The notes under the pieces were generated by a model. The model was given only the letters and a program-made list of their open reading frames with translations, had not been told where the DNA came from and did no database searches. A program made the translations under genes and the position numbers. From Apostichopus japonicus (Eukaryota > Echinodermata > Holothuroidea > Aspidochirotida > Stichopodidae), in assembly GCF_037975245.1 (NCBI RefSeq), contig NC_092579.1:15896178-15960177 (forward strand): DNA of 64,000 bases, given 5' to 3'. Below, in pieces: positions 12,830 through 54,533 of this stretch (positions within the stretch are counted from its first letter, which is position 1; every line of letters begins with the position of its first letter).

Positions 12830-15800
12830 ATGGCCCAGGTCGACATCCGGATTCAAGACGTCCGCAAGAGTGAGACTGAGACCGAAGACGATGACGACAT
12901 CATCATGGAACCGTTGTTCGACGACGTCCCGGACGTACAAAAGCTGAATCTGAATGAAGCCTTTGAGAACATCAAGAAGAGCAAGACGCCTCCGACCAAG
13001 AAGAAGTGGAAGAAGGCGGTCAAGAAGTCCCAGAAGGTAGCTGACCCTTGGGCCATCTATCACTTTGACAGCGTTCCTGTCGAGATGTGCACTAGACACC
13101 GATATAATGCTGTCACTGAAAAATGGACCACCGATAAAGTGAAGGTGAAATTGGCAACAGAGGTAAGATTTATTCTCACTAACACAAGCTCCTAGAAAGC
13201 TAAAAAAGCTATAAGGTACTGTACATGTATGGAAATCTTCGTATTTGTTCATTTCGGGGAATCATGCCGCAATGCATTGTAATTTTTTTTAATGTAATTT
13301 TCTAACTTAAGTTTGATGTGAAAACTATGAATAAATTATCTTTCTTGTTCTGTTTAATGTATGATGGCAGCAGATAGAAGATTAAGAACAGTTGGTTCTG
13401 TTTTTGCTCACTTTCTTCATTCTTTGACCTCCTCCTTTTCATGCTAGTATCAAAAAATAAAAAAATAAATAAAACACTGAACATGGTTTTCAAACATCTG
13501 TATCCCTGTTTGGCTTTCACTGCCCAACCAATACCTTAAATTGTAAAGGCACTGTGTCAAAAACGAAAAGCTGCAGCAGGCTGAATCAATATCATACAAT
13601 GGAACTTATCTCATACTATGCAGACCCAGCAGTGCCAATTGCAGGGAAACTGCAGCACATTTTACAAAGTCCTACTGTACAGTATGCAACAGCCATGCTG
13701 CAGTATTCTGCAAACCCCCTCAACACCCTACTCTTCACACTGCATTACCAAATATCAGTTGCATTCTTGATCAAGATTGCCAGGACAGAGAAGGAATGTC
13801 TGAGATTCCCCAGAGGACTGAACAGTAGAATATAAGCAAACTGACTGACAGATACAAACATGTAGACACAGTACTGTATGTATTGAACTGTATGTACAGT
13901 ACTGATTACTGTACTGTACAGTACTGTATGTAGTATTTACTTCACTCCTCTCTTACCTGTCTCCTACAACACTAACGCACATTTCCTAGTCTACCTAGAT
14001 GTCACTGGATATGTAGTATGTCATGGATTATGTCATGGACATATGTAGTATATGGACATATGTAGTATGGACATATGGACATATATATGTAGTATGGACA
14101 TGGACATATGTAGTATGTCATGGATCTCAATGTCATGGACATATGTAGTATGGAATTACGTAGTATGGACATATGTAGTATGGACATATGTAGTATGGAC
14201 ATATGTAGTATGGACATATGTAGTATGGACATATGTAGTATGGACATGGACATATGTAGTATGTCATGGGTTTCAATCAAAGTAGTTACAGCAATATACA
14301 CACATTTGATCTGACATGAAGAAACTGGTTAATATTGTGAAATGCCATTCAAGATAACTAAAGAATGGAAACAATTTTTCCTTGTTGAAGTAGTACATGT
14401 ACAGTACCCTTTTGTACAGTACATTACTGAGTTATATTTATGACAGGATTAACTCATGCAACCATAAACATCTATAGATTCTAAATCATAACAGAGGTCA
14501 GTCAGTAGTACAAAAAAATGTACTGTACCATCTTGAAGGGTAATAAAATATCATCCAGGTACCCTGTGAATGCTAGTTTTCTCAGATCAGTGTCACCTCA
14601 ATATTTTTCGTACGGTAAAACATTACCAGAATGAATCTGAGCATGATGCTATATAGATTGGTAATTTTATTGCTACAGTATCAAGCAAGTATACAAAGAC
14701 TGATGATACTGCACATAGACATGTATGTACAGTATTCATTCATACCACAAGAAAGCAAGCTTCTCAGCATATAAACTAGAAGCTAATTCATAATGTATTG
14801 GAATACTAAATAACATAAAATCCAACACAAATGCTGTAACATTGTTGTTGTTCAGTATTAAATTGACACAGTCATATTTCATGGTTATTGTACTGTTACG
14901 TACTCTAGTAGCTATCTAATGTATAAATACATGTAATAGAAGTTTCTCTGTTTAACAGATTCTCTACGAACAAGATGTATGTGTATTGTTTAACAGTGTG
15001 ATTTATTTCTCCCAAAAGTAATACATTAACTACAGTAAAAGTGAAACTGACTGCACTCTGTTAATACAGACAGGACTTTATTTGAATTGTTCACCCAATA
15101 AAGAATATTCAGGATTGATAAATTGTAAGTAAGCTGTTCTATATCAAACTGCAATGTAGATGTCTTAAAGGGGCATCCATGGCTCGATTGCGATAATATG
15201 CAAGATTGTCTTTTCATGCTTTATATTCATAAATTTTGAGGTGTTTTGTGTATATATAACAATGTTGGTAGCTTTTTTACTTTTTTAGCTGAATGTAAAA
15301 TTTGTTCAGGTAAATTGCAACCCATGGCTTCATTATTTTGCCAGTTACATTTATGTTATTCTTGAAATTAATAATTTAATGGTATTACCGTGGCTTAATA
15401 GGGAAAATTAAAAAAATAAGTGTCCCCAAATCTCAGAATACTGACTTTCTATCTCAAAATTTGACTTTTAATGTCAAAATTTTGCCATTTTTTTTTTTTT
15501 ACCCCATCAGTCCAAAGTTTGCCTTGTTATCTCAAAGTTTTGACTTTTTATGTCAAATTTTCCCCCTGTGAGTCCCTATTAAGCCACTTATGGTATACAT
15601 GTATGACAGTATGTTTTTATTCTATTCCTTTTCTACAGCCATTTGCCAATGGAGCTATGCGTGAATGTTACCGCATGTGAGTAATACAGTATATGTTGGT
15701 GGTGTGATGTATCATAGACAATCAAACTGTGATTAATGAATTGTGCCTAAGATCTACAAATTCATAATATTGTCATCCCTTCCTCACTTACCTGTCTCCT

Positions 15801-18800
15801 CACAACATCTACACACTTGCTGTACGAGTGACACAGTAGCCATTGACGCTGACCTCCCCAAAGGTCGACGACTGCTGACACCATCTAGGTCTTTCATATT
15901 TGTCACAGAGCTAGACTATACTGACAAATTCATGTATTTTGATAGTATTTTTTTTACCATTCTTAGAGCCTGTCTTCAAGGATTGATGGATATCTATAGT
16001 TGTATATTACATTACTATTAAAAGGGAATGCATAAATGTACTCGTTTTAGAACTAGTGTACGATAAAGTAATTTATTAAAGGCATTTCTGTGATAATTGT
16101 GAAACAACACTAACTTGAACGTAGCCTTCTATTTCGTTCATATGCCCAAAGAAAGTCAGGGATGTACACTTCTGCCCACATTCCTGCACCCACTATCAGC
16201 CATTTCTGTTCCAGTTTGACTGAAAATATGGTACTTGTGGTTTTTTCAGTGTCTTAACTCTTTCTCATATGAGAAAGGGAAAGGGCACCATTTCATCATT
16301 GTTATCTGTAGTTTGGTGCAGCTGTAGCAAAGGTGTAAGCCTCATATACAGTAGAATATGTATCTGAATTCTAATATATTGTTTATCAGGTTTCAGGATT
16401 CAAGCCAATTGAGTATTTCAGTCATTGACAGATTTTTTACATATATATATACAAAGAGAAGAAAAGGCATAGAAGGGTCAAATATGAGACTGTCACAATA
16501 ATTCCTGAGGAATTATTAACAGTTAGATACAAAAGCTTGAGAGAATTAACAAAGAAGTTGTTAAAGAAATTGTGGGGGGGGAGGGGGGTGCAGATACCTA
16601 CAGTAATGTCATTAGATCACTGGATACTAAGTAGAGGTGACAGCAGTGTAACTTTATTTGAATTCTGTGTTTTAACAAACAGGAAGAAGTTGTCCAACTT
16701 CAGCAAGTCCTCGGATTGGATTCATGCTGGTAACTTTGTGGCTAAGCTGTACATGGAGGAGGTTGATAGGGATATTTACTTCCAGGACGTGAAGCTACAG
16801 ATGGATGCCAAGGTGTGGGGTGAAGAGTACAATAGACACAACCCACCAAAGAAGGTACAGTATGAGATCAGAAACATAGCCAGGAGTGAAAAAAGGATGA
16901 GGGGGGTGGGGGTGGGGGTTGGAAGGAAAACTTTGGGTATCTTAGGAAGTAAGGATGCCATAGGCTAGGGTGAAGAGTACAATAGACACAACCCACCAAG
17001 GAAGGTACAGAGTGAGATCAGAAAAGTAGCCAGGAGGGAGAAAGAATGGATGAGGTGGATGGGGGGTGGGGGTTAGAAGGAAAAAAGTTGGTATCTTAGG
17101 AAGTATGATGCCATAGTCTGCGGTGAAGAATGCAGTAGATACCCCTGCACCAAAGAAGGTACAAGTTTTAGGAGTGTTGAGGAGGAGGGAATTAGAGGGT
17201 GGGGGGGCAGGGAGTAGGAATGGAAGTGAGGGTATTTTGATGGTAGATTGATGCCATAGGCTAGAATGAAGAATATGGGCAGACAAACAACCCACCAAAG
17301 TAGTTAGGAAATCAAAAACACAGCTAAGATGATGTTTCTTAGGTATATTTTTGAAGTATGGATGCCATAGGCTGAGGTCAAGAGTGCAAGAAATATAGTT
17401 CATGTGAGAAGATTATTGGTGGGAGACTGGAATGGAGGTCCGGGTTGAAACTCATGGCTTTTGCATGTCATAGGCTGGGTAGAGCAAGCACATTCTGCCG
17501 AAAACACTAGGAGTTTGTTGGTGAGAGATGGGAGTATATATAAGTCAGGCTTTCTCATGATTAATGAATATCATTGGCTGGGGTGAAGAGTAGAATAGGT
17601 GCATCCCTCAAAGTAGGTAGGTACAGTAGGTAGGCAGGTCAGAAATATGGCTATTGTGGCATAAAAGTATACTGAAGGGTTACAGACTAGGAAACATTAC
17701 TCAAATAAAGAATTACATTTTGCTGAGGTACGTTACTTTCTGTTTTGCTTCTGTCCCTGATTTAGATCGATATCTGTCAGATGTCGATCTTGGAGTTTAC
17801 CGACAGACCGAACAAACCTCTCTTTCACCTCGAGAACTTCATGGAGGGCCACTACGTCAAGTATAACTCAAACTCAGGGTTCGTGGACGAGGATGACGTC
17901 AGGTGCACCCCACAGGTGAGAGGAAATTCTTCTATTTATCAATTTTCTGTTAGAAATTTAAACTTGCTGAAATGCAGCTCTGTTGGAACAAACATCTTAA
18001 ACCATTTGACGATATTTTGATGAGAATGCACAAAATACTTCTACACTTGGATGAAGTCTCAAAGAAATTGAAACAGCTGTTATCTTGGCTCACTGCTAAC
18101 CTGTATTCTGCCCGATGTTGCCAGAATCATGGTCACCTAAGTGAAGTCATCAATTTGATAAATTCTTTTGTTCAGTACATTTGTGTGTGTTTGCAAAGAC
18201 AACTTGCATTTAACTTTCGGTAAATTGATAAATTTACTGTTGATAACTAGATGATATGTGTATTTTTTTTTTATTTTTTTTTTTACCGTTTCTAATTTCA
18301 GGCATTCAGTCACTTTTCATTTGAAAGATCTGGTCACAAACTCATTGTTGTAGATGTTCAAGGTAAGTTGTTGCACACTTAATATCAGCATTGGTTTACC
18401 ACCATAGTTCCCCACCCACTTTCAGTTAGTTTTGTAAACAATAAAAACATACAATAACAGTAAAAGTCTGATTATCCAAACCCATCTTATCTGAACCCCC
18501 TATTTCCCAAACCGGTCATCTGTTCATTAAAAAAAGGTCTGCAGGCCTAGTGTTATTGATTCTAAGTACTCATATCCTGAACAACGTAAATTTGTTAACT
18601 TTACATAATGATCAGCTATCAAGTTTGTTTGACAAATCATGTCTATGTTTATTCATTCTTCCATTGCCCATTCTACATAAATGTCTGATTGGTATTTGTA
18701 TCAAGATGTTTACCGCTTTACAAACGATTGCATGGTTATGATCCGATCAAACATTCACACATTAAATGTTAATGAGGCTAGCACTTTTGTGCCCAGCATG

Positions 18801-21800
18801 CAGGCTATGGCCTTTTATTATACCATTGAATTGCTTCTGAGACTATTACGTAATCTTTGAAACACTGCACTGCACACAATTGTTATTAGTTGAGACAATT
18901 AATGAATTTTAAGGAAGATAACATCGCTGATACTTTAAAAGTATTTCTCTTCTCACAGTATTTTTGATCTCTCCACGCATTGACAGTTGCTAGTGAAACG
19001 TACATTCGTACCAAAGGAATTTCTTCATTGCAAACTAAAGAACATTTTCACAGTCACTTTGACTTCAGTTATAATATTTTATACAACGTTCAACTGGAAA
19101 GTACTTCATACAGTACATCACCGTCCTATTGTTGGGACAGTACCTTTACCAGATTAGCTCTATGGGGCAGTGGAACGCAATAGTCATCAACTTATCTTAT
19201 TTGCAGAAATTCTCATATCTGTTTTTTTTTTAAACTATTCCAGGTGTCGGAGATCTGTACACTGACCCTCAAATCCACACTGCGACTGGTACAGAGTACA
19301 ATGAGGGGAACCTCGGTACTAAAGGCATGGCCTTGTTCTTTGCTACTCATGCTTGTAATGAGATCTGCCACAGCTTGGGTCTGACGGAATTTGACCTCCA
19401 CCCCACCGAGCTGGAAGAACACGCCAAATATGTGCAATTGTCGGTGAGTTGGTGAGGAGGGGGGATGGGCATCTATGGCAATTTTGACGAGAGCATCAGC
19501 TCTTTTTCTCCATTGTAAACATAAGTCCATAGTTTTATAAATTCAACATATCTTAATCACATGATTCTTTCAATATCATAAATAACTGAGCTCATATTGA
19601 GGATATCCAACCCTAGTTGTCCTTGTAAATCTCGTTATGGATTTTAAAGGTCTTATTTTTCAAGAAGATGTTTCACACTGAGATGTATGTCACTTCTTAG
19701 TATCTAAAAGGGGGGGGGGGTCTGTATGCTAATCTATATATTTCTAGCAATTAGATAGATGCAAGTTTGATGTTACGGTAATAATTTTGACATAATTTGA
19801 CAGCACTTTATCTGTTTTGTGTCGCTTCAAGGTAGATATATAGAAAAGATACCCTAAAATATGAGCCTAATCTTGACCAAAGTGTAATTTTTCAAATCTT
19901 TTGCAGAATAATTCTGACACACACGTTGCTCCCTCTGAGAAGGTGAAGACTGTGTTCCGACCTCGGTATTCCATCTCACCTCTGGAGGTCACACGTTACC
20001 TGATCACTGAGAGACAATCAGAGAGTGAGGACAGTCAGCCATCGTTGGGTACCCTAGGGGAGGAGGATGAAGACGAGGATGTAACATCCGAGAGTGACAT
20101 CAGCATGCCCTCCACCCCTACCACACCCTCCTGCATCCCCATGAAGGTGACCCCGATCAGCGGGAGCAGTCGCAAAAGATACGTCAGTGAGAACTCGGAT
20201 GATTCCATGACCAGGGTATGCTTTACATCATAGCCCCATTACCTTGGTGACCAAAGACATACCATGGCTGGCCCATTAAGTGCAGATTAACTCAGAATAT
20301 GTGTAGGCTAGTATCTCTGATGATTCAATGACCAGGGTATGCTTTACATCATAGCCCCATTACCTTGGTGACCAAAAGACATGCCATGGCTGGCCATTAA
20401 GTGCAGATTAACTTGGAATGTATGTTAATGACCTGGTCAAAGTCGTAGAAAGTTAAACCATAAAGTAGAGACTCAACACAAGCAAGCAACTTGAAGTAAT
20501 TAAGATCAATTTTTGAGTATAGCTCCAATGTTAGTATTATTAAGATCAGTTTTTGACCTTCCAAAATATGATATGGTTTCCTTCATCTCGGCCCTCTCTT
20601 GTTCTTGCAGGAGGAGGAACAAAAACTATTCCAGAAGCGTAACGTGATCCACCGACCCTCATGTGTCACTATGGAGAAAGACTTTCACAGGACCTCTGTG
20701 GACACTCAGGTCCCATCGTCCTCGGGTAGATCAATTCTCGGACAGGTAATTCATTATTTTGTATGTATGTATGTATTTAAGATTCTCCTGCAAGCAGGAA
20801 CTCGCGAAGAAGCCTCATTGGCTTATCAAAGCCGCAAGCTGACCGAAGTCAGTCTCTTACATTCATTATTTAGCGTCCATGATTATAAATTGTTAATTGT
20901 CAACAACTCTGTAACTGGACAACATACATTAATCTGGGAGTGACTCGAACCGGGGACCTTATGATTAAAAGGCACCGGCATTAACCACTGAGCTAACACT
21001 CCTTAAATTTTGACAGAGTGAAAAGTTTTGCGCTAATATTGAAAACCACAGTTCTATTTTGAGGATAAACATTCTCAGAATCGCATCAGATGCAGGACAT
21101 GGACCCATAAATTAGATCATTTCAGTGGTTCTGTTTTGTTATCTCACACTTTTCAGAGTTTTCATTACTATTCTGGCTTTGCTCATTGACTCCCAAACTA
21201 ATGCAACAAAGTACCAAAAATAAAGGCAAGAATTCCATTTCCTGGTTAATATATTTGTTGGATTTTCCTTGGACAATGTTGCATATTACAGAATCTGAGT
21301 TGGAAAAGTTATTGAATGAAAAGGATTAAACGTGAATGTGTTATTCTTCTATTTCCTTCATTGACTTATTCAATCTTCATTCCTATTGGTTCTTTATAAA
21401 GATAAGTTAAGTTTTCACCCAATCACATGCAAGTTTATGAAAGTAAAGTGTCGGTTTGACTTTTGTTGCAGATGTGCTGTAAATCGCTCTTGTATCTGAA
21501 AGCAGTTCAGAGGGAAACATTTGCTATACTATGATGTGTCTTTTATGACAACATATATTATATTTGTCGTTCCAGATCCACTTAGAACTGGCCAAATATC
21601 ACGAGTTGGGCCGTTTCGCCGTTTCGGAAGATACAAGGAACCTGAAGGCTGCACTATATCACCTTGAACAGTCAGCTCAGTGTGGTATTCTGGAATCCAT
21701 CCTGGCTTCAGCTCGGATATATCTGAATATTCCCAATGACATCCTGACGGACCTGCACGTTGATGTAAGTTTCTGATAAAGTGGACATCGAAACAAAATA

Positions 21801-24800
21801 CGTAACCATTAAATCTGCTTCGTACTGCGTAATGGAATGAGACGTGACTCAACTTGACAATGTGGTAATTGTGTGTAGTCGGGCAGTGCGCTGTTTAACA
21901 TTCAGTCAGTTTTAAGGCAACTCTGCTTCTATGGAGGGAGGGGGGTGATATTCCAGCTGATACTCGGCAGCATACTCTGGTTCGTTTCAACAAAATGTGA
22001 CTGATCACAGGGTAATAAATTTTACATGTGATCTAGGCAAGCACCACTCGTTTACAGAAACTAGTTGTTCATTGTGCACTCATCCCTTGTTCTGTGGATA
22101 GGATGTTACTCATCCTGGTACTGATAGCAAGAGGTATTCTGCTTGTCATCTTGACCCCCCTACCTCCCCCCCCAACACTACCGAATCAATTCAATTTCGT
22201 AGGACAAGGTTTGATCTTGGAATATGTATGTACGGTTCAATCTGGGTTAATTGTAGCTTAATTTTTCTATTGACAGGAATCTGAGACAAATCACAACGAG
22301 GGTATTCGGTACATGGAGATGGCGGCAGAGGCTGGGGACCGCTCTTCTATGATTCACATGGCCAAGGCGTACGATACAGGCAACGGCTTAGGAACAGAGA
22401 GGTAAGTTATCTAAGATGGTTAACCATCTGAAACATGTTTTCCAGACGGATGTGTACGGCCAAGCAAGTCTTTTGTCGTGACAAGGCCTTATGACACATT
22501 TGTTTTCACTGGATAGTCACTTTACTGGTATAAACATGACTTTTACAAAGAGGTCTCTGCAAACAGGAATCGAGTACATAATTTCAGACGTGTATTAGCA
22601 TCAAGAGGAGATGCACATTATCTTGAACAGATCCTTCTCGGTATTTCACTCACTTTGAAGCAGATATGGCAAAAAATGTAATATGACGTCGTATAGCCAA
22701 ATGTCCAAAATACTCAAACAGCTATTAATATGGAACAATGTGTAAGAGATATTGTATCATATTGTATCACATTAATTCAGTTTTAATATTTCAATGGTTA
22801 ACAAAATTCAAATAGAGCCCTGCATTCATAACACACTACGACAGGGGTTTTCAATGAGTGGCCAGCGGCCAAATGCATCCCACGAAGAACTTGATTCCAG
22901 TCTAAACAAACATTGGACTTCAAAGTAAGCAGAGGTTTCTCTCTTAAAAGGTCAATGGTCTACCCTGCACACTGTTCAATCTAGATATATCAAGATTTTG
23001 ATGGTCTGCATAGCTCTTTGCCGAAAGCTATGTTTTCTTTGGACCTCATAGAAAACGCTTGACTTGCTCTGTGTCATCTGTGTGGTGTTTTAAGGGTGCA
23101 GTGATGATGAAGACTGCAGTTATGTCAATCTTAACTGAAAATGTGCACCGTGGAATATTTTTGAAATGTAAATGTAAATGACTTTTCACAACAAGGGGGT
23201 AGAAATAAGTGTTATTGTTTAAACCATACAAATAATTATGATTTTTTTTGTCTACCACTAGAAATGTTTTACAGTGCTATTTTCTGTATGATTTGGAACT
23301 CTGTCTATAAATCCATGATTGGATTTATCTTGTCTTAGCACATGTTTCTTGTACCTCAGTGGACGAAAAATGAAGTATAGGAGAAATAATTAGTCGCAAT
23401 GGGATCGGAAGCTCACAATTACGAGAGATGTCTTGTGCTCCACCAACTTGTTTATTATATATTTCGAAATTCGTATTAATCTAATATACTTTGTTAATCG
23501 ATCAATTTAATTTTCACAATTATGGTCGCTATTTAAGAAATACCTATTGTTTATTTACGAAAATGAGAAAAAAAAAATGTACATTGAGTTCAAAGTTTGA
23601 ATAAAAGATGGCCCAAAAAAAAAAAAAAAATTGGCAGATTGTCAGATCACTTTTTTCGAGTCCTATTCTAACCAAAATATTTCTTTGCTTTTGTCAAAAG
23701 TCGGTCTGTTTTTCGCAGTCAGTTCTCCACTGTTGATTTGCTGACATAAAATCATAACTTGATAGGTCAGGCAGAATGTCCACCTCTAATAGGGTCTCAC
23801 GTCCAATTACAGGAGCAGATCGTGGACAGACGCTATGAATTGGTACGAGCAGGCGGTGGACATGGTCAGCGAGGACGATAACGGTGAATACGACTGCACC
23901 ATGTCGGATCCCAACTACCTGTTGATTGCTCGGCAAGCGGAAATGTACCGCGAAGGAGGCCAGGGACTCTGCAAGGACCCATCTCAGGCTGGTAGGTTGT
24001 AATCCATCTTACCATCTATAGATATTTAAAAATAAATGGATATTCTGTGTTGAATTTACTAATAAATAATGATATTTGATTTTTATATAGCGCTTTATAC
24101 CAGCGATAGGTCTCAAAGCGCTTTACAGACGGTATATTACCCCTGGTCAATGATACTTTGTCCCAGAGACAATCCTTCCAGTCGGCAGCAGTTATTTACT
24201 GCACCCAATGACAAGTTACCTCACAGGTACCCATTTAACCCCTGGGTGAAGGGAGGCAAGTGAGATAAAGCATCTTGCCCAAGGAGTAATGAACTAGGCA
24301 TGAATCAAACCAGCAATCCTTGGATCAAGAGTTCGACGCCTTAACCAATTGGCCACCAAGCTCTCAAATCTACAATCTGTTGGTAGAGTTTCATGACCAT
24401 ATATGGACTGTGCAGGTTCCTGGAAACATGATCCATGTCAGGAAAAACAACCAGAAATGGTGAAATTATGAAACATGGCTCGCATATGAAGTTGAAACAA
24501 TTCATTAAACCACATAATCGCCTACAGAACCTTATCTGACTCTCGATTCCCCAACTTGCCAGCGTGAACCAGATTTTGATTTTTTTTTCAGCAATTTCCC
24601 TGAGTCTTGATTTTATGTTTCATAGGCAGTGTTAGATGATGTTGTTTGTTTGTTTGTTTTTTTGCGGTCAGGTATTTTGTGATTTAAGTAGAGACTTTTA
24701 TCAACCGTCCTACTCAAATATCATATTCAGCCTTAAAAATGATCAAAATTCAATCCATCCACACTGAATATTGTTTTTTTTCCTTCTCATCTTCAGGGGA

Positions 24801-24927
24801 TCTTTACAACGAGGCAGCTGAAGCAGCCATGGCTGGTATGAAGGGTCGGTTGGCCAACAAGTACTACATGTTAGCCGAGGAATGCTACGGAGAGGTGGAA
24901 GAAGAGGAGGAGGATAGCAATGAATAA
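12830..24927 (+). CDS. EEF2K: Eukaryotic elongation factor 2 kinase, complete, 12 coding exons
   Basis: Calcium/calmodulin-dependent alpha-kinase that phosphorylates eEF2 and slows cytosolic translation elongation. Exons: 12830-13162, 15639-15676, 16683-16854, 17766-17915, 18302-18362, 19244-19443, 19907-20215, 20611-20745, 21576-21764, 22277-22401, 23813-23991, 24797-24927; all introns are GT-AG and phases agree, giving 673 aa (human 725). The start ATG has an ACAACCATGG context and an upstream in-frame stop. Residues 72-79 (DPWAIYHF) match the calmodulin-binding region. The alpha-kinase domain (about 100-318) keeps Lys145, Asp249, Gln251 and Asp259, and the zinc ligands His235, His287, Cys289 and Cys293, all offset 25 from human numbering. 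An acidic Ser-rich linker (about 319-450) follows; the human RGTEE autophosphorylation motif is not evident. Sel1-like helical repeats fill 467-673, ending in an acidic tail. Exons 3 and 7 have tandem tail copies in their introns. Confidence 0.96.
14011..14268. repeat. Minisatellite, 15-bp unit, in eEF2K intron 1
   Basis: A 15-bp unit (GTAGTATGGACATAT) is repeated head to tail, most regular at 14158-14250, with interrupted variants (TATGTCATGG insertions) on both sides. Because the unit is a multiple of three and lacks stops in several frames, it creates spurious ORFs on both strands (repeats of TYVVW or ILHMS). It lies in the intron between coding exons 1 and 2. Confidence 0.9.
16803..17640 (+). 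repeat. Decaying tandem copies of eEF2K exon 3 tail and donor
   Basis: The real exon 3 end (about 16803-16860, encoding GEEYNRHNPPKK and followed by GTACAG) is followed in the intron by copies starting near 16951, 17107, 17248, 17354, 17466 and 17566. The first copy keeps nearly all of the exon sequence and the donor; later copies lose the reading frame, the donor and length progressively. Intervening G-rich intron sequence (AGGAAGTAAGGATGCC-type) is copied too. The array extends to within about 130 bp of exon 4. Confidence 0.8.
20198..20425 (+). repeat. Tandem duplication of eEF2K exon 7 end and donor
   Basis: Unit 1 (20198-20318) begins 18 bases before the exon 7 donor at 20216; unit 2 begins at 20319, a 121-bp period, and repeats those exon bases with one change (CCATG to CAATG) plus the GTATGC donor at 20337 and about 90 bases of intron. 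Reading through the first donor meets a TAG within about 15 bases, so use of the second donor would truncate the protein. Confidence 0.9.
20761..21002 (-). mobile_element. tRNA-derived SINE (family A), reverse copy
   Basis: On the minus strand it starts GGAGTGTTAGCTCAGTGGTT (A-box-like) and continues to a B-box-like GGTTCGAGTCAC, then a body matching the copies at 37285-37502 and 38317-38553, with a tail of ATAC repeats. It begins 15 bases after the exon 8 donor of eEF2K, in opposite orientation to the gene. Confidence 0.85.
24069..24362 (-). mobile_element. tRNA-Ser/Leu-like SINE (family B), reverse copy
   Basis: The minus strand begins near 24362 with GAGCTTGGTGGCCAATTGGT, resembling the A box of a Ser/Leu tRNA, and a B-box-like GGTTTGATTC follows. 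The 3' part carries TGTAAAGCGCTTTGAGACC and ends TAAAGCGCTATATAAAAATC. The head differs from family A, so two SINE families coexist in this window. The GCGCTTT/GCGCTATATAA tail recalls the broadly distributed MetaSINE group, but I could not verify this. It lies in the last intron of eEF2K. Confidence 0.75.
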
Positions 24928-29290: not shown

Positions 29291-29828
29291 CTTCCAATCT
29301 ATTGTGTTGGATTATTAAAGTGACATTCAAATTTATAATTTTACATTCATCAATTAAATGCTAATATGCTGTGCTGTTATGGTCTTCAATGCAAGTAGTT
29401 TCAACTTTTTTTGGTGCCAAAAAGTAGTGTGATAAAATCAAGCTATTTAAAGAATATTCTTTCCATTTTCTTGTTCATCTCCTTTTGTTTTTAGAAAATT
29501 TAATTAGTAATTATCAAATGTTTTTGGTTTTTTGTGGCTAAAAGCCTAAAACAGAAAATTTCCAGTCTATTTTGTTGGATTATTAAAGTGACATTCAAAT
29601 TTAAAATGTTACATACATCAATTAAATGCTGATATGTGGTTCTGTTATGGTCTTCAATGCAAATAGATTCAATTTTTTTTGTGCCAAAAAGTAGTGCGAT
29701 AAAATCAAGCTATTTAATGAACATTCTTTCCATTTTCTCCTTTTGTTTTTTAGAAAATTGAATTTGAAATGAACAAAAATGTTTTTGTTTTTTTGTGGCT
29801 AAAGCAGAAAATTCCAAACCAGTGAGCT
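29291..29828. repeat. Tandem duplication, period about 268 bp
   Basis: The segment starting TTCCAATCTATTGTGTTGG at 29291 is repeated from about 29559 (TTCCAGTCTATTTTGTTGG) with the same order of landmarks: GGATTATTAAAGTGACATTC, TATGGTCTTCAATGCAA, GTGCCAAAAAGTAGTG and a TTTTTGTGGCTAAA end. Copies differ by substitutions and small indels, so the event is not recent. No coding content was recognised. Confidence 0.85.
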
Positions 29829-32045
29829 TAGGATTACTGCTGAACTCGTTTTGATTTTCTTTCGTTTAACAAATGTAGGTTTTTGAAATTACTTCTTTTT
29901 TTATGATTTTAATTTTTAATTTAAATGTTTAAAATTTCCGGCTCGCATTCTTCTCATGCTGTCATACAGTGTAAATACTGAACTCATCTATGTCATGCCG
30001 ATACACTCCTTGTGTATATTAAACACTTTTGCATTATTTTTGGTTGTTTAAAGTAAATTTATTCTGCACAAATTTAAAGAAAGCTAAAACTCTCTGCTCT
30101 CCTTTTGTATGCATTCCTATTATTAACTGTACATTAAATTTTTCACCACTAAGCTGTATTTTTTTTTGGCACAAATGGACATTTTGCTGGATTTCGATAA
30201 GATAAAAACATTAAAAAAAATTACAGTATACTTTACACATAATTACATCTTAACGAGTTAAGCCATTAGCATTCTCCAGGCATATTTCACTAACCAATTT
30301 TTAAGTTTTATTTGGGTAAATAAACGGGGAAGAAGTTTAAAGTGTTAATTCATCCTCAAGTTTCAAAATCAACATGTTCTTATGTGAACAAGTTTACACC
30401 TGTTTGAGAAATCCCTGATGATTGATAACCTATCCTGTTCCAGATGTGTTTAGATCCAGTATTCATATTTGAAAACTAAGTGTCTCTTGCATTGATACAA
30501 CACTTAAATGTGTTTACTGTTCTACCTTTTGGATAAATGTCTTTGTATTGCATCTAAAAACGCAGAAGTGCAGTTAATTACCAACAAGAGAGCTAGTCCC
30601 TCAATATCCTCTGCCTCCCCACCTACCCCCCTCCATCCCCACACCACCATCCCCTCCACAAAACGTGTGTGTTAGAAAACCCCCAGACTTCCTTAATCCC
30701 ACAATAATTAACGTTTCCATTTTGCCCTTGTGTTTAATTCTGCACAGTAGATTATCGATGTGAAGCGATATGGTTGTGACTATGAGATGACACCTTGGCA
30801 ATACCTAATCACCTATAGGTGGGTGATGGCTGTACCTCTCTGGTTCCTCCAAGAACTCACTCCTGTGAAATTGTTCTGTGGTAGACGTAGGAAAACAGCT
30901 ATTTGTCAAGTATAAATAAGGTCACTCTGGATCGCAGATCAAGTCTGGGTTATTCCATTTTTGGGGTGGCTATTGCTATGACAACGAAAATTTCTCATGC
31001 ATGCTCCAATTTAAAGCCATTGTTTTTTTGTAACCATGAATAAATGTCATGATTTTTTTGTTTTTTTGAAGTAGCCCTTACTGGTTTTCACTTTGTAGCA
31101 TATATCCTCCCACATTGCACATTAATAAATGGATCAGACTTTATCGTAAATAACTTTAACTTTGGTTTCATCTCATAATATCATTAAGAACTGAATTATT
31201 TATTTTTCTAGGGAAAACAAAACAACAAACAAAATGAGTTTCATGTTTCTTGCAAGGTAAACAATATCACTAACAGATAAAAGTAATGAGTTAAGTACAA
31301 CAATTAATGATAAGTTAATGGTGAATTTCTGCTCTTATTGACTCTGTGATTTATGTGAGTTATTCGTGCATATACTCTTGTGTACTAAACTAGCGTTACA
31401 ATAAACATGAAAAATATTCACAATTTGTTGTTGGTTTGGTCCTTTATTCGCATCCTATCAGGTCATCGACTTCGACCTCTCAGTAAGCGAGAAGTAAGGT
31501 GTTGTCAAAGGTTAACCATCCCCCCCCCCCCCACACACACACACACTCGCCCCGTCATACCCCAACCCAAAGAAAATAGAAAAACGAAGAAAGCATGAAA
31601 TGAGTGTGATGAATCCTTAACAAACCTAACAAATTTATAAATATGGTAATTAGATATAATTACAAAATATTTGCTACTAACAGTTCTCAATACGGATGAC
31701 ATTGTCGCTCATTTCTGTTCAATGTAACTCCGATAATCTCACGACGTCCGAACACCATTGACAATAGTTAATCCGCTCGCATGTGCTGGGTACCTTTGGA
31801 CGTAGATTTACATGTCTGACAGTTTGAAACGGAAGTATTCAATTAACTTGGATTGAGAAGGGGAAGGATGGGTTACGACTTATAGATTATACTTCACGTG
31901 TTTAATCCTCATTCACTACATTCCTCTGTGAGATATGGCAGTCATATATACACGTGATCCGTTAATGTTACCGTAATGCTTGCATCCAGCCGAGACTTGA
32001 ACGAAAAACTGATCGTTGGTATGTATAGCATTTGTTAGATCAAAA

Positions 32046-32965
32046 GAAAACTAGCATTACTGCCTAGTCCTGACAATTGGTGAGAAACAGGCTCTTGAAG
32101 TGTAGTATCACTTTCAGACAGTCAGTAGTTGGGTCCACATGAACTTGAAGGTCTTCGGGATAGTTTGATCGAAGAATTGCTGGATAAAAAGAAAAAAAAT
32201 AGCATTTCTGCCCAGTCTGACAATTGGTGAGAAACGGGCTTTTGAAGTGTAGAATCCAAGGGCGGCGGAACCGGGGGGGCACAGGGGGCACGTGCCCCCC
32301 CACTTTTCCTCAGGTTAAAAATGTGCCCTTTTTCTACATAAAAACTGAGGTGTCTCAAGTTGTCAAGAGGCCGTCACTCGGGAAGGGCCGTTTCCGGCCA
32401 TCTTAGGGGTTTGTAAAACCAAAAATTTTCTTGTACGCTCCGCACCAACTTATGGTGGCGCTCCCCTCAGATAGTCGTACATACAACTTTGCCAATCCTG
32501 GCTGCGCCCTGACTTTTAATGAATTTCTGTGGGTCAAACTCAAAGCTATATCGAATGGAAAAAAATTGTTAAGATATTAACAAGAAATATACTCTAATTC
32601 GGAAGATTCCTACATTAGCAACTAGCATGTTTTCACCTCATTTTGTCTCAAAGGAAAACTTGTTCCTTGTTTCCCAATTTGCACATTGGATATTGCAGTG
32701 CTAGTATGCATAATTACCTTGACGGGGGGGGGGGGGGGGCGTTGGTGGAGTGATGTGTATACGCAAATAAGATCATACAATAAGAGTTAAAAAGGGTACT
32801 AAATATAAGGCTGCATCAGTCCAATCGAATTTCTGCAAAGTGCCCTTTGATGTCGGTGCCCCCCCAGATTTAAAGTGCTTCCGCCGCCCTTGGTAGAATC
32901 ACTTTTAGACAGTCAGTAGTTGAGTTCACATGAACATGAAGGTCTTCTGGATAGCGGTCGAAGTA
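32046..32965. repeat. Local tandem duplication, second unit split by a MITE
   Basis: Unit 1 (about 32046-32185) carries CTGACAATTGGTGAGAAAC, GAAGTGTAGTATCAC, GACAGTCAGTAGTTG and GAAGGTCTTCGGGATAG. Unit 2 repeats these landmarks at 32217-32256 and 32893-32957 but is interrupted at GTAGAATC by the 636-bp element at 32257-32892. Unit 1 thus serves as a natural empty site. Confidence 0.85.
32257..32892. mobile_element. hAT-type MITE, 636 bp, 8-bp TSD GTAGAATC
   Basis: Ends are 14-bp inverted repeats CAAGGGCGGCGGAA. The flanking octamer GTAGAATC is present at 32249-32256 and again at 32893-32900. The unoccupied version of the site is visible in the duplicated unit at about 32145 as GTAGTATC. It contains poly-G/C runs and no usable ORF. 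An 8-bp duplication and CA..GGCG ends fit the hAT superfamily. Confidence 0.88.
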
Positions 32966-37700: not shown

Positions 37701-40700
37701 TGACGACAATCTGCATACGGTAAACAAAGATACCAGGATTGGATTCATGTATATAGCTAATCTAAATGGAAGGACATTTGTATGATCTCCACTTACGCTT
37801 ACGAGCAATGGCGCAAAAGTACAAATTTTGTTACTAATTGGGAGGGGTGTGGTGGGGATTGGGTGGAGTGGGGCTAAAATGTTATGCCCTTGTAAGTGCA
37901 ATGCAGTGTCTTTGAGAAATTGTGGTAAAATGGAGGGTGCTCAGATGAAAAATATCGTGTTGAAGAAGCTTTAACTGTTTAGTTTGTACCGCACATATAT
38001 TTATGTACATTACTGGATGGAGAAGATATACTCCTCTTCTCATTTGAGGAATCGTTATATGATAAAGGTTGCTTAGTAGCAAAAATAGTGTTATATTTTT
38101 TCAACTTTTGAAGTATAATTTATGTATAAAATTGTTTATCTTTCTATTCACGAAAATTGGCAATTTCTCTTTTCTGCCGCTTTGCTCGACCACGTGCAAT
38201 TTGAATAATTCATGTGGGCAAAGCGCAAGTTCTGCACCTAGCTTCAGGGTGAAGTAAATGTAATCTGTTTCCCAGAATAACCCATGCAGTATATGGCATG
38301 CTGATTGTTAGCCCAAGGAGTGTTAGCTCAGTGGTTAACGCCGGTGCCTTTCAATCATAAGGTCCCGAGTTCGAGTCACTCCAAGTTTAATGTAATGTCG
38401 TCCAGTTACAGAGTTGTTGACAATTGACAATTCATAATCATGGACGTTAAATATGAATCTAAGAGACTGAATTCGATCAGCCTGCGACTTTGATAAGCCA
38501 ATGATGGCTTCTTCGCGAGTCCTGCTTGCAGGAGGATCTAAAATACATACATACCTACATTGTCTCGTTCCACAGCGGTAATATTACACGTAAGGAAACA
38601 AATTTGTATGAAAGATATATAGTTAATTAGCGCAACCATGAAGATTAGATTGTGGGCAATATATTTATACCCTAAACAACGGATGGATTCGAGACCCTTG
38701 GTTATTGACACACATATTGACAACAATACTTGCAAACATATTGAAACAACACTATAATATGTGTATCCGCTTTCTATTTGCATTTTATGTATGGAGCACA
38801 TAAAACAAAGAGACGATGTCTCCGAATTAAGTATTTGATGAATAAAGCCTTAAAGCTAGCGTTATATACGGGAACGAATTAACCCAGTCGTCCTCTGCAC
38901 CCCCTCTCCTTCCCCCTCCCCTCCCCCTCGTTAACCACGTGTGGTTATCTGGATAAGTGATGAAGAAACTCACCTCTTGAAACTTTGGTGTGAAACCTTA
39001 GTTTCTCTCTTGGATTGTAAATGGAATCAAGCAGGATATCAAAGGTTGTGTCAAAGAATGGCAACCTACCACACAACATCGCATACAAAACGACGCCTAT
39101 ACACACCATGTAAGAAAGATAAGAACAAAAGAGAATCGTGTCTTCAAGAGATGATGTCACAAATTTCAGCAAGTACGGTACTTTACATGCATGGTGCGCT
39201 CTGCTTTGGTCGTTTAAACACAGTATTTGTTGTTATTATTTTTGTTATTATATAAGTTATAGAACAACAACAAAGTGAGGGTTTTTAAAGCAGAAATGAC
39301 GATACCTTTCACAAAAATACGGAAACCTTCTACCGGATGTCAAGGAGTAAAAAAACATAGATAGAAGTTTCTGGGTGGATTATTTTGCATTGCGTGGAAA
39401 AGGTCACAGTACAGATACACAAAATTTGATGAATATAATCAATAGGATCGCAACGTTTTGTTTACTGCGCGTTGTCACAGTCATTTGGTGTAGATGTTGT
39501 AGATGTTCACTCGTGCGATACGTTCGTCAACGCATCGTCGGAATTCGGATAGCGTGAGATTTGAAGATCATGCACCGACGTGAGACTTAGACATATACAT
39601 AGGCCTCAAACCGTGAGTCTCACTTGTATAGAACATATAGAAGTCTTAAATTTCAACAGAGATTCCAAGACACCGGCAATACATTATAGAACGATACGGT
39701 ATTAAACATTTCTACGAATGTTTCATTGATTTAAGTATCGGTTAACAATATTTTTACCCATGCTCCATAGATCCGATCGTTTCCCCAGATATGGTTCGCC
39801 CTCCATTATTTCAGGTGCTGCGTAACCGTAAGAACCACAGGCTTCAGTCAGTAGCTCGCAATCAGCACCTACACATGCCAAACCAAAATCTGATGGAGAC
39901 AAAAGAACAGTGTTTTTATGTGTTTCGTTATTATTTGAAATTATGCATTTGTAGCGACCAGTATACGTGAACTTGATCAGAGGGCACGGTTGCTGTTGCT
40001 GCCGTCAGTACTGGGTCCTTTTTCAAGGCACTGACGCAAGTTCTAAGGTCACTGGTAGCAAATTGTTGTCCGGTGCCGTCGGGTTCATTTCAGGCTGTTT
40101 ATACGGCATTATATACAATGCAAAATTCAACTTAGCGTATACACAAAAATTCTCCTTATTTCGTTCTTACCTCCTAATTTAATGTTGTAGTCCTCATCGA
40201 AGTAGATATTATCACATTTGATATCTCTGTGAACTATATCGATGGAGTGTATGTAAGTCACCGCGTCAAGTAACTGGTGGAAAATGCGGCGGGATTCCTC
40301 TTCCGATAGGTGGCCTGGAAAAAAAAGAAAGAAAGAAAAAAGAGATTAAAAAGTTACCCATAGGTAGAATAATAACTTGATCTCTTGACATGTTGTACTA
40401 TCAAAGTAATGTTACGTCATCAATATGATGGAAACTACTTTGCAAATTTGCAAAATGGTATTTTCCTCTAAGATAGGACATGTCACTTCAAGCTGTTATA
40501 CCCTTTATGTTACTTTCTTCAGAGAAAACGCAATCCATCCACCTGTTAAAATGGAAGGCTGCGTATAGTGGTTAACACTTGTGATAATTGAATGTTCATT
40601 TCCCCCACCGCCCCCCCCCCCAGTTCATTTGGTTATGTACGGTACCCTAGCGTGTTCCCTAAGTTCGCGCATTGTGTTAAACATATGTAGTTGCACTGGT

Positions 40701-43700
40701 AGTCAAATTAGTACCAATTTCATCAATCGCAATTTTAATCTACAAAGCCTAAACCGAAACGGCTAGAATTACCACGGTGAAACAAGAAAACACCATGTTG
40801 TATATTGAGACACTTTCGTGGATTATGTCACCGATTTAGAGGAATTATACGGTAGACTTCAACACATGCGCGAAGAGAAGGAAGTTTCCATACTTCGAAC
40901 ATTTGGCTCCCGGCGTTTATAAGTATAATTCTTTCCATTTCTGGTGGAATCTGATCAGCCCATCGATGAAATCACATGGCTGAATTGATAGAATTGATAA
41001 AATAACATTAATGCCCTTACTATCGCGAATTAACCATATACATATATGTGCATTTGACTTGAGTACCTTGAGTGCTAATGAACTGTTGCAAGTCGCCGTT
41101 AGGAAGGTATTCCGTAAGAAGAAATACGTGCTTGTTAGTGATGAGAGCGCCCTCCATGCTAACCTGCAAGAAAGTAAGCAATAACATCTTTATACTTGTT
41201 ATATACAACCAGGGGCGTAGCGAGCGGGGGGGGGGGGGGGTGTGGGGGGTGTCACACCCCCCGAATAATTTGGTCGCTGTCGGCAAATTTTGGGTCTGTC
41301 GGCAAAAGGAGAAAAGGTGAAGAGAGCGGAAGGGGAAGAAAGAAGGAAAGCTGAATAGAGAAAAGGAGAACGGGAGCTTCTTCCGTGCCAAATTTGACTT
41401 AAAATATGCACCAGATTGCATCTAAGGACGTTTCAAAACTAAAAATTTTCCAAAGGGGAGGGGTAGACCCCCTACCCTTAGACCCCTCCCCCATTTCAGT
41501 CACCACTTCCAGATCCGTCGGCAAATCAAATTTGACTTAAAATATGCACCAGATTGCATCTCAGGACGTTTCAAAACTAAAGAATTTCCAAAGGGGAGGG
41601 GGACACCCCCTCCCCTTAGACCCCTCCCCCATTTCAGTCACCACTTCCAGATCCGTCGGCAAATCAAATTTGACTTAAAATATGCACCAGATTGCATCTT
41701 AGGACGTTTCAAAACTAAAAATGTCCCAAAATGTCCCAAAAGGGACAGATCCGTCGGCAAATTAAATTCTCCACACCCCCCTAACAAAAACCCCTTCGCT
41801 ACGCCCCTGTATACAAACCATTATCTATCCGTTAAATATTACAAATTATACTAGAGCGTTAATGCAAATGTCATGTAAGTTAAAATTTAGATGTTAATTC
41901 TAAGATATTGGAATAATAATAATAATAATAATAATATCCTTGTTTGCAGAGTAGTTAGGTTTTTAAACTTACCAATCTCTCGTGGCCAATCTTCTGTAGA
42001 ATCGTTATCTCTCTCGGAAGAAATACTTCAAGATAATCCTTAGGCACATTTTGTTTAGAAATGATCTTTACTGCGAAATCTTTGTTTAATTTCTTACAGT
42101 GGACTCGTTTAACCTGGATCAGGAAAAAAAAACTCACTTTAGTAAGAGAATGGTTCCAAAGAAGATAGCTATATTATTGTACAAAAAACTGCAGAGACGT
42201 TAGCATAGCACGATTGGGGTGGGATGACCCCCTCCCCCCCCCCCTTTCTCTCTCTCCGTCACTCTCTGTCCATCATCCCTCCCGTGGATGGTTCTTAAAG
42301 AGTTCAAAGCGATATACCTGTATCCGGTACTAAAATACATTGTGGTATTTGTATACCAAGGCTGGCAACGCAAAACACGTTAAAATATATTAAAGACGTG
42401 CACTTTGTGGGACTGTGGTGATAATGTGTTATGCGTTATATGTGTTAGTGTTATTTTTGTTAAGTATGTGAACCCTCAAGAAATTTCGTTACACTGTTAC
42501 TCTTAATTCATATCTACTCTTGATGTCTAAGCGATGTGCGTTATACGTACTATAGCCTGCTGAGAAAGTTTCATGCCTGTAATTTCATGAGAATAAAGTT
42601 CTGTACAAAGTAGAGAGAAACTCAGTTGACAAAGTCGTTGCTAGCCAGTTAACCGCTACGACTCCAATGTCTCGCCAACAAAACTCACGACTTCTCATCT
42701 CTAAGCACGTATCAATATTTTATGGTTTACATATTATGTAGGCATAGCCTATACATGCCAGCAGAAGATGACAACACCTTGCCATACATACAACTTTTCG
42801 GTCTGTGTGTGTAACAAAAGTTATTGAAATGATTCTGATCGGCACGAATCAGGGGGTTTCCGACACTGTATGATCGGGAATTCGTCACTTACTCCCAGTC
42901 TGCGGCGTTAGATGTTTATCATTTTTTAATTGTTATCAACTTTTAGAAGGAAATGTCATTTTTAGCAGTGGCGTAGGAAGGTACTTTTGAGCGGGGGGGG
43001 GGGGGGCTGAAAACTGATGGCCGGCCTGGGGGAGGGGTTTAAGGGGAGGGGGTGTCCCCCTCCCCTTTGGAGTTTTTTGCATTTCCAGGTGGACTCAGAT
43101 GCAATTTGGTGCAATATAGCACACTTCCACACCCACTCCATTCTGTAAACTTAATTTTGTATTTTCACCTGGCCTTAGATGCAATTTGGTGCTTCAAATG
43201 AGATTTTTTTCTCATTTGGAAATGAAAAAGGGGTTTTCTGACTTGCGAAGCGGGGGGGGGGGGCGGAATGATACTTCCGCCCCTCCACATTTTCACTGGG
43301 GGGGGCTGGCGCCCCCAGCCCCCCAGTTCCTACGCCCTTGATTATTAGTCACAAACATTTGTACAAAATACACACCCTTAATGGTACATCGATATGTTGT
43401 CTGAAGGTCGCCGGAAACCTCTGCAGAAGCTTTCTCAGAATGTACAGGATTATTTTTTATGTATAATTTGTCAACATTTGTCTTTGTCTGCGTTACTTCT
43501 CAGTAACTGTAATATGATAATTATGTTATTGCAATAAATGGAGGGGAAAAACATCTTCCTATGTTTTGTTAAGGCACTACTACACAGTGACCATACATAT
43601 ATCCATGTATGATGTAGGCTAGCTTACTATGATTAGCGTTTAACGTTTACCTTTGAAAAGTGTCCTTTACCGAGATCTTCCACAACTTCAATTCCGATGC

Positions 43701-46601: not shown

Positions 46602-47641
46602 TGTTTACACGGGTCCAAAAAACGGGAACCGGGTACCCGAGGGCCGTTACCCGTCGGGTATCCGGGTACCCGGAAAAAAAATTGTTTACCCTCGTGTATC
46701 ACGATTTTCAAGAAATTACATATTAGATGCTGTCATAAATGCATTATATTCTCTACTGACAATGTTTTCATGTTCAAATACGTAGGTGTAAGATAAGGTG
46801 TAAAACCTCCCTCAATAATTTTTATTTGCTTCTGTTTCTTTCATTAACTTGTTAATAAATAAATAATTTAATTATAATTAGCATTACTACTAACATCGCA
46901 CTGCCGCCGCTGCTTATGCCAGCTCGTGCACGTCTATTGGATCAAACCATATAGATATCCAAGTCAGCTCTTAAACAGTTTTTAATACTACTACTATCTA
47001 TTATGCAGGCCCAGGGTTCTCATTAGCCGCGAGATTGCGCGATTCGCGCAATTTGATCGCATTTGGAATAATCGATTAGTAAAAAGCCACTTGCGATTAC
47101 TATTTTGTAGTTATCCCGTCTATAATCCATAAACATCGCGTAAAATTCCTTGTCAGCCTTTCCTTCTTTGAAATAAACGAATGAATAAATAATAATTTCT
47201 TCCACATGGTAGCCTAACACCACACTAAGTCAATGAGAAATCTAGCTAAGCCTAACCATCTGTTTATTTGCTGGAGATGTGACGCAGTTATAAGACATCC
47301 ATGGAATACTTTCGTAATTGCTGTTACGTTCGACCACATGGTTGCTTAACACCACACTAAGTCAACGGGGGCAGTCTAGCCTAGCCATCTGTTTATTAGC
47401 TGAAATTGTGACGCAGTTATAAGATATCTATGGAAAGCTTTCGTAATTGCTGTTATCTTCTACCACATTGTAGCCTAACACCACACTAAGTCAATAGGAA
47501 ATCTGCCTAACCGTCGGTTTGCCAATTTTTAATTTTTTTTTTTAAATCACACTTTGCTTAGGATTCGGGTAATAAATTAGGAACCGGGTAGTATCACGTC
47601 GGGCGGGTACCCGGGTACCCGGATAACCCGTGCAAACACTA
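46599..47641. mobile_element. hAT-like element, 1043 bp, TAGTGTTTRCACGGGT ends
   Basis: The left end TAGTGTTTACACGGGT and the right end in reverse complement TAGTGTTTGCACGGGT form the inverted repeats. Both sub-termini are packed with CGGGTACCCG-type words. The flanking octamer is ATATATAT on both sides, though on the left it is the end of a long TA tract, so the duplication is weak evidence. The interior holds 2.6 copies of a roughly 130-bp tandem unit (CCACAT.GTAGCCTAACACC near 47202, 47334 and 47463). No intact ORF was seen. Confidence 0.75.
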
Positions 47642-47740: not shown

Positions 47741-49057
47741 TTAAACAACATCATGTTCTGCTACCAGCGAGCTGTAAGAGGGAGGTGGTTCTTCAGTCCC
47801 TACCAAGTCCGATACTGTATTTACTACCGCCACAGAATCGTAAGATGGTGGCAGATCCCGACTCTCCTCATCCGTCTGGTATATCTCGTTCCTCACCAGA
47901 GGTGACCTCGGCGATGACGTTGGCGCTCTGCTGCTTCTCGTTCTGGTCTGGGAGCTTCCCCTCGGATCCCGGTTGGTCGCGGAGCGCTGTCTATCACCTT
48001 CCTCTGCCAAACGATTAACCTGCATCTGAAGGCCACAAAGTACTACCCCTATCAATGTGACAGAGAGAGTCACTCCCAACGGGATGATGGCAAAATATAA
48101 GCAATACTTCCAAAGGGATGCAACACAAGTACCTTGAAGTTTTGCATATGTGTCTGTATCTTCAGACAACTCAACCATTACAGATTCTGCTTCTTCCAAA
48201 TTCAAGGAACATTTGCCTGTGGCATTACAAGAATCAGTCGGTTGCTCTTCGTTCCAATGGTAATCATAGCGGTTTAGTACAGAGGTCACATTGAGATTTT
48301 CCAGACTGTCAGGGAGTTCTCGATATGGGTCGTTCATTAACACGAAAAACAAATCTCCATAGTAGCCACTGTCCGAAGAATACCTGCGAGAGTCTGGGGA
48401 ACTTCCGTCTTGGTTACACTTACGGAAGACAAAACTGTCCGAATAACGTCCGCAACATTTATGGGACTCCCAGTAACCAATTGATGAGGTGCTTCTGACT
48501 GTGTACAAATATATGGCTCTTTCCGGTGCGCAGGCCCACAACGTCACCGAGGCAGAGTCGCCTAGATAATGATACATGATGAACACGTCATCCGCAGGCA
48601 GTGACAAGCTTGGATTCGTCTGGTGGTATTCGCTGGGGTTTCTGTTCTCGTGAGGGGTTTCGGGGAATACATATGCCTTGAATAAAGCGGCGCCACCCAC
48701 TACCTGCAACTGGTAAGCTGAGCAGAGACCTGGCGACAGGTTGAAACTGTCATCACCCCGGTTTATCAATCTCTGGTCTTTATCTCCCAGGTAAAACTCT
48801 GTTTCAGAGTAAATGGAAAAACGGAACAGCAGAGCCAATGCTATATCAAACAATGCTAAGTAAAAGAAGACTAGCATTCCCTTCTGCCATTTTGGTCTTC
48901 TTTTGCCAGATGAATAGCAGCGCTGGCAACATGTTGGACATTTAGTGCAGTCGACAATCTCATCCAGTGGTACATTCCATTCATACCCACTCCAATTTGA
49001 CCTTTCGCCAGAGTTAGATCTGCTGAGGTTGCTGGTGGAGTTTCCAAAAGTGGACAT
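47741..49057 (-). CDS. Two-pass membrane protein with extracellular loop and two PPxY motifs, intronless
   Basis: An uninterrupted 438-codon ORF. The N-terminus (1-58) has a Cys cluster CTKCPTCCQRC at 37-47; a first membrane segment spans about 59-80. A roughly 235-residue loop follows, with N-glycosylation sequons at Asn256 and Asn278 and many cysteines. The second membrane segment is about 317-343. The C-terminal tail is Ser/Arg-rich and carries PPSY at 403-406 and 425-428, the usual docking motif for WW domains of NEDD4-family ubiquitin ligases. The loop segment with LQVVGGAALFKAYVFPE, YHYLGDSASVTLWAC recalls the APD1-4-type domains found between two helices in plant and animal membrane E3 ligases, but no RING finger is present here. 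Such a protein could be an adaptor; this is inference. Whether it arose by retroposition is not determinable here. Confidence 0.85.
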   Translation of the reverse strand: MSTFGNSTSNLSRSNSGERSNWSGYEWNVPLDEIVDCTKCPTCCQRCYSSGKRRPKWQKGMLVFFYLALFDIALALLFRFSIYSETEFYLGDKDQRLINRGDDSFNLSPGLCSAYQLQVVGGAALFKAYVFPETPHENRNPSEYHQTNPSLSLPADDVFIMYHYLGDSASVTLWACAPERAIYLYTVRSTSSIGYWESHKCCGRYSDSFVFRKCNQDGSSPDSRRYSSDSGYYGDLFFVLMNDPYRELPDSLENLNVTSVLNRYDYHWNEEQPTDSCNATGKCSLNLEEAESVMVELSEDTDTYAKLQGTCVASLWKYCLYFAIIPLGVTLSVTLIGVVLCGLQMQVNRLAEEGDRQRSATNRDPRGSSQTRTRSSRAPTSSPRSPLVRNEIYQTDEESRDLPPSYDSVAVVNTVSDLVGTEEPPPSYSSLVAEHDVV

Positions 49058-49844
49058 TTTAGGAGTGTTGTCGTATGCAAATTATTCAGACAAATTTCCC
49101 ATATATATCTGGTCACATGGCACTACTGGAAGACATCTTTATATAGGTTACCTGAAACAAATTGAAAATAGGGCGATTCTTTACAAAAAAAAAAAATAAC
49201 TTTAATATTAAATATCATACAACCATATGGCAGATTTGTCCTGGGGTAGAGCCCATTGTTGTATCACTAGACACTGCTGATGGTGGTGACAGCCAAGAGG
49301 ATGCATGGTTATTGTACTTTTGGTGTTTCCATCTCATGCCCCCAAAATCCTATCAACTTCTCTTGAAGGGAAGTGTCAGTGTTTTCTTTCACTAAATTGG
49401 TGTTTTCTTTCACTTTCAAACTGTAAGACCAGGGGACCATGGTCACAAAATTGTAGCCTAATATACACAAATATTGTATGATAATATCTATAATCTAGAT
49501 ATTAACAAACTCAGATTTGCTCCCAATCCTATACCAAACTTATTTGAAGGTTAAATGTCTGGTTGGTACAATACCTACAAAAATTCACACTATTCCGATC
49601 TACAGACCCATACATACAATAACAATTATTATACAACACCTAATTGTATTCTGGTCATTTGATTGGTCAATTGCTCGTTGATTGCATGCAAAATCCGCTC
49701 TATTCCACTCTATGAAATAGAACCATGGGTTATACTTTTTTGGTAGCACTTTTTTCAATGGTAAGAGAGCAGAGAAACCTGTCTGTTCAAAACAATTTGT
49801 TGCATGAGTGCATTTTACCCATCTAATATAATATGTTGTATAAA

Positions 49845-54285: not shown

Positions 54286-54533
54286 ATTAGAGTCTTTATA
54301 AAGGTTATTTAAAGAAAAGATCAAACTTATCGTTTCAATTGCATGATAAATTCAACGTTTAGATCTTTATACAGTGAATCAGTGAATATGATTATTACAA
54401 TGAGGTTTTCTATTAGAGTCTTTTTTAAAGGTTTTTGAAAGACAATGTTACACTTATCGTTTCAATTGCATGAGATATTCTACGTATAGAACTATATACA
54501 GTGAATTAGTGAATATGATTATTACAATGAGGT
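54286..54533. repeat. Tandem duplication, period 126 bp
   Basis: Both units begin ATTAGAGTCTTT (54286 and 54412), share CTTATCGTTTCAATTGCATGA and ATATGATTATTACAATGAGG, and differ at scattered positions. No coding content. Confidence 0.9.

Follow-up and report, generated by a model that had tools for sequence, protein, structure and literature searches.

Intronic minisatellites with polar growth are head-to-tail arrays of diverged copies that possibly grow from one end. Tandem duplication can also run across a splice junction. In the RdRp gene of potato, one tandem genomic duplication over an intron-exon boundary, on the acceptor side, is described as having produced a new intron with read support, together with a further 83-bp tandem duplication inside an intron (PMC4974935). 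The tandem duplication of exon segments containing AGGT, known as the Rogers model, is treated as a recognised route of intron gain (review PMC3443670). Junction-spanning tandem duplication is already described; in the locus presented here, copies of the donor side of a junction are absorbed into the intron. Our literature search, which covered titles and the starts of abstracts, met neither an exon-tail array nor an account of the introns of this gene, and we do not claim that they are absent from print.

The window, meaning the whole stretch of 64,000 nucleotides of Apostichopus japonicus DNA that was analysed, contains a complete gene for eEF2K, whose exons were predicted by combining the DNA with the protein match (Table 1). 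The predicted CDS of 2022 nt consists of 673 codons plus stop, with no stop inside the frame. Its product matches eEF2K chain 7shq_A (phmmer, E 4.1e-181) along two segments (residues 57-319 and 439-666) and the Pfam family Alpha_kinase (3.7e-57). Exon 3 encodes ...WGEEYNRHNPPKK, its 3' boundary reads ...GEEYNRHNPPKK/gtacag, and exon 4 begins at 17766 with the residues IDICQM. Intron 3 is 911 nt long, and the gene's ten remaining introns measure 386-2476 nt. Elsewhere in the window, an ORF at 39723-40004 of the minus strand encodes part of a protein kinase domain (Pfam Pkinase, E 4.6e-10) and is probably an exon of a minus-strand kinase gene. A second minus-strand ORF, at 38945-39232, looks kinase-like by eye with no Pfam match, and an uninterrupted one of 446 aa (47741-49081, minus strand), with hydrophobic stretches by eye, is perhaps a membrane protein gene.

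Table 1. Features of the eEF2K locus; positions are those of the window, and a slash marks the exon/intron boundary of a donor or donor copy.
Feature	Positions	Strand	Description
eEF2K gene	12830..24927	+	12 coding exons, 673 aa, complete; 11/11 introns GT-AG
Exon 3 of eEF2K, repeat source	16683..16854	+	real donor 16854/16855, AAG/gtacag
Unit U1	16803..16952	+	exon 3 tail 16803-16854 and first 98 nt of intron 3
Unit U2	16953..17105	+	129/149 identical to U1; exact donor copy 17004/17005
Unit U3	17106..17248	+	donor-like AAG/gtacaa at 17158; four-run G-quadruplex motif 17187-17212
Unit U4	17249..17359	+	partial exon-like core; without donor GT and without G-rich part
Unit U5	17360..17462	+	local alignment to exon 3 covers first ~30 nt
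Unit U6	17463..17565	+	vestige: ~15-nt motif and likeness to U5, not directly to exon 3
Unit U7	17566..17700 (3' limit uncertain)	+	most distal; nearer U1/U2 than U4-U6; strong donor-like TAG/gtaggt at 17616
Exon 7 tandem duplication	20195..20425	+	last 21 nt of exon 7, donor AGG/gtatgc and ~90 nt of intron 7, one extra copy; offset 121; copied donor 20336/20337

In intron 3, a segment made up of the exon 3 end, the donor and about 100 nt of the adjoining intron recurs head-to-tail, at about the positions given by a sequence-only reading. Seven in-register unit starts were found, U1 being the real exon tail with the start of the intron and U2-U7 being intronic; TRF calls part of the array (16819-17163, period 150, 2.3 copies). 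As a head-to-tail repeat of several copies, the array belongs with minisatellites or intronic tandem repeats. It is also a splice-junction-spanning tandem duplication, since U1 crosses 16854/16855 and recurs at offset 150, and so is the end of exon 7, which recurs at offset 121. The array strand is strongly G-rich, with a GC skew of up to 0.546, and the motif listed for U3 is of G-quadruplex type. A dispersed or transposon origin was rejected: blastn (E up to 1e-5) returned no other copy in the window, the sole hit touching 16780-17740 besides the self-match being the array against itself. No relative was found in two collections of viral and prokaryote contigs.

To assess homology to the exon, the tail together with the first base of the intron (53 nt, 16803-16855) served as query, and scores were set against 2000 dinucleotide shuffles of each unit and 1924 background segments of the window. 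Five of the six intronic units outscored all their own shuffles, with scores of 82 (U2), 55 (U3), 39 (U4), 32 (U5) and 45 (U7), the best background segment reaching 26. These results support a tandem array seeded at the exon 3/intron 3 junction of eEF2K and, for five of the six units, run counter to the refuting outcome named beforehand, a similarity to exon 3 no better than that to random G-rich sequence. U6 showed no homology to exon 3 with this query (score 14, equalled or bettered by 1304/2000 shuffles). When the whole unit U1 was the query, U5 was less well separated, 12/2000 shuffles reaching its score, and U6 failed again (1676/2000). What places U6 in the array is the shared ~15-nt motif CATGTCATAGGCTG and its similarity to U5, which 0/500 shuffles matched; in comparisons with U1, U2, U3, U4 and U7, 429, 29, 27, 135 and 133 of 500 shuffles did as well. 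The array thus consists of five supported copies and one vestige, and not clearly of the 'at least six' copies first proposed. Where the exon has CAAGGTG, each of the six intronic units reads CATAGGC or departs from that by one base, which points to one founder copy of that stretch common to all of them.

The same gene offers a second case. The duplicated end of exon 7 (20195-20215, SDDSMTR) differs between its two copies at 2/21 exon sites (TCG/TCT and TCC/TCA, which on direct reading are synonymous changes) and at 5/88 sites of the intron part. The JC divergence of the intron part is 0.059 for this pair versus 0.160 for U1/U2, and if both drift alike the exon 7 duplication would apparently be younger than the U1/U2 split. 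The copied donor is identical to its source, and splicing from it would extend the exon by 121 nt and bring in a stop after five codons. The search at the gene's 11 donors and 11 acceptors took in as much as 1000 nt of the neighbouring intron, and donors 3 and 7 alone beat all 200 shuffles; over the same range, exon-tail or exon-head duplication at donors 1, 2, 4-6 and 8-11 and at acceptors 2-12 never rose above all 200. Duplicated junctions in eEF2K therefore number 2/11 donors and 0/11 acceptors.

The graded decay described by the sequence-only reading applies to most of the array. In exon-like cores, the limits of which we set from the alignments, identity to U1 is 51/57 in U2, 45/57 in U3, 39/56 in U4, 33/52 in U5 and 25/47 in U6, a drop through 89, 79, 70, 63 and 53%, yet U7 rebounds to 39/56 (70%). 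Free local alignments put U3, U4 and U7 at about the same distance from U1 (72, 74 and 76% over 130, 80 and 89 aligned sites). The U2-U6 gradient could be read as an ordered ladder, in which the exon-proximal unit was the template for every new one and distance from exon 3 stands for age, as in a polar minisatellite. We regard this as possible but doubtful. Earlier units are indeed about equally like a given later one, with core identities of 79 and 79% to U3, of 70, 77 and 66% to U4, of 63, 67, 69 and 60% to U5, and of 53, 57, 53, 55 and 48% to U6, and the ladder tree survives the AU test (p 0.367 for the core, 0.345 for the whole unit). However, the distal U7 resembles U1 and U2 (70 and 75%) more than the intervening units (64% for U3, just 52-55% for U4-U6), which speaks against simple sequential growth from the exon. 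Nor is the ladder the top-ranked tree among those compared, in either alignment. The eight trees entered, which amount to six distinct unrooted topologies because two pairs are identical, were all retained by the AU test with both the core and the whole-unit alignment. The 95% set given by the cruder bootstrap proportion lacks tree 4 in the core alignment and trees 2 and 3 in the whole-unit alignment, and expected weight leaves out tree 2 in the whole-unit alignment; the ladder stays inside with both measures. A forward and a reverse ladder are one unrooted tree, so the comparison is blind to direction. In the whole-unit maximum-likelihood tree, U1 and U2 pair in 83% of 200 bootstraps, followed by U6 with U7 (66%) and U3 with U5 (63%), but in the core-only tree no split exceeds 50% and U1 is not joined to U2. 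The most recent duplication step probably made U1/U2. Since U7 breaks the gradient and the trees neither favour nor reject the ladder, an ordered record is supported only in part: aligning the units pairwise, the way suggested for dating them, brings out the gradient from U2 to U6, but the order of the older duplications is not readable from seven short, decayed units.

The copied donors bear on the remaining alternatives. The units had been taken for a series of dead splice donors, which is inexact: U4, U5 and U6 have lost the donor, but the copy in U2 equals the real donor, 150 nt away, over 9/9 bases and so is not dead by sequence, U3 keeps 8/9, and the site in U7 scores higher than the real exon 3 donor. 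Use of the donor at 17004 would lengthen the exon by 150 nt in frame and bring in a stop after 37 codons. An exact copy acting as an alternative donor could thereby lower eEF2K output by unproductive splicing, and the exon 7 copy, with its identical donor and early stop, would fit such a role as well. We consider it very unlikely that the copies act in this way: both duplicated donors are weak by the frequency score given below, 40/607 intronic GTs of the gene (copies included) match 17004 or better in U1 pairing (not unit U1), and drift accounts for the conservation of the copy. That conservation might instead reflect ongoing gene conversion between the exon and its intronic copies, keeping near units alike and creating the gradient, as U1 and U2 are closer in the exon core (1/36 differences) than in the intron part (14/97, plus gaps; Fisher p 0.068). 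With only the coding copy frozen, however, at most 1/36 core differences has a probability of 0.26, so the contrast is not significant under coding constraint and neutral drift of the U2 copy suffices; moreover, the CAAGGTG of the exon occurs in 0/6 intronic units. Gene conversion is accordingly an unlikely source of the gradient, while the raw Fisher p leaves room for weak selection or conversion on the U1-U2 exon core. Finally, falsely duplicated haplotypes or misjoined repeats in the assembly could be suspected from the near identity of the exon 7 pair in the intron, but the 14/97 intron sites and the gaps that separate U1 from U2, and the far greater divergence of the older units, make such an artefact highly improbable.

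Placed at random, a first copy would span one of the gene's donors with a probability of 0.109 if it is 121 nt long or 0.137 if it is 150 nt long; for two junction-spanning events the product is 0.015, chosen post hoc, and about 0.06 with acceptors allowed. Two donor-spanning events are therefore mildly unusual and provide no strong argument for a donor-specific process. In the whole window, blastn detected 12 near-tandem loci (offset below 600, at least 40 bp). Leaving out four short-period arrays (14009, 34109, 55198 and 59809), eight remain, at 1398, 16803, 20194, 29292, 32032, 41389, 47197 and 54280. Tandem duplications with offsets of 121-268 bp are thus common here, which suggests a general process, not one special to splice junctions. 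The short tandem duplications outside those of exons 3 and 7, with offsets of 126-268 bp, extend over 1398-1667, 29292-29803, 32032-32256, 41389-41730, 47197-47520 and 54280-54533. The array at 59809-61098 is a long one with a ~40-bp repeat, for which TRF reports 28.4 copies over 59956-61098.

Donor strength is another feature of the two duplicated junctions. A frequency score built on human values was applied to the gene's 11 donors, and donors 3 and 7 came out lowest on these values (0.11 and 2.04; next 4.06). Each of them matches the consensus at 5/9 positions, the other nine donors at 6 to 8. Two donors drawn at random from the 11 would be the two weakest with a chance of 1 in 55, a comparison again picked post hoc. 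This lead depends on the score used, as U1 pairing energy orders the donors differently: donor 7 is still the weakest (-5.1), followed by donor 9 (-5.4) and donor 2 (-7.2), and donor 3 is fourth (-7.9). We hypothesize, as an unlikely reading, that exon-tail duplicates survive only at weak donors, copies of strong ones capturing splicing and being purged. If so, a copy of a weak, context-dependent donor would be harmless and might back up or tune the original, and an intron could grow from its own 5' end. Two cases in one gene pose a question for the whole genome, namely which duplicated donors can be tolerated and whether this depends on donor strength.

The intron 3 array is very probably the product of tandem duplication across the exon-intron boundary, repeated several times and mostly neutral. 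A segment of ~150 bp across the exon 3/intron 3 junction would have been duplicated in tandem repeatedly, by replication slippage, template switching or unequal exchange, and the copies would have come to lie within the intron, 3' of the working donor. Spliced out with the intron, their own donors presumably unused, they would drift almost neutrally, the older units being eroded by substitutions and deletions. A similar but independent event, apparently more recent, would have copied the end of exon 7. The six unit steps from 16803 to 17566 sum to 763 nt, and growth by that amount in an intron of 911 nt implies an ancestral intron 3 of ~148 nt, which would have been shorter than any of the other ten eEF2K introns today. 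On this best explanation, about 763/911 nt of intron 3 (~84%) would have been produced by repeat duplication. It is ordinary tandem duplication in an unusual location.

Compared with polar intronic minisatellites, the eEF2K array has units of 103-153 bp, few copies and a source still recognisable as coding sequence. It shares with the potato RdRp gene, as described, a short tandem duplication over an exon/intron junction that carries splice signals along, but in eEF2K it is the donor side that was duplicated, more than once at exon 3, and the gene structure shows no visible change (PMC4974935). With the Rogers model, as reviewed, it has in common duplicated exon sequence with AGGT, present in eEF2K within AAGGTA, whereas no new intron is visible, all copies lying within the existing one (PMC3443670). 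In the predicted gene model, exon 3 joins exon 4 in phase across the array, and the product aligns there to eEF2K without gaps. The locus provides a clear natural example of an intron made mostly of copies of the end of its own upstream exon, with copied donors ranging from intact to erased.
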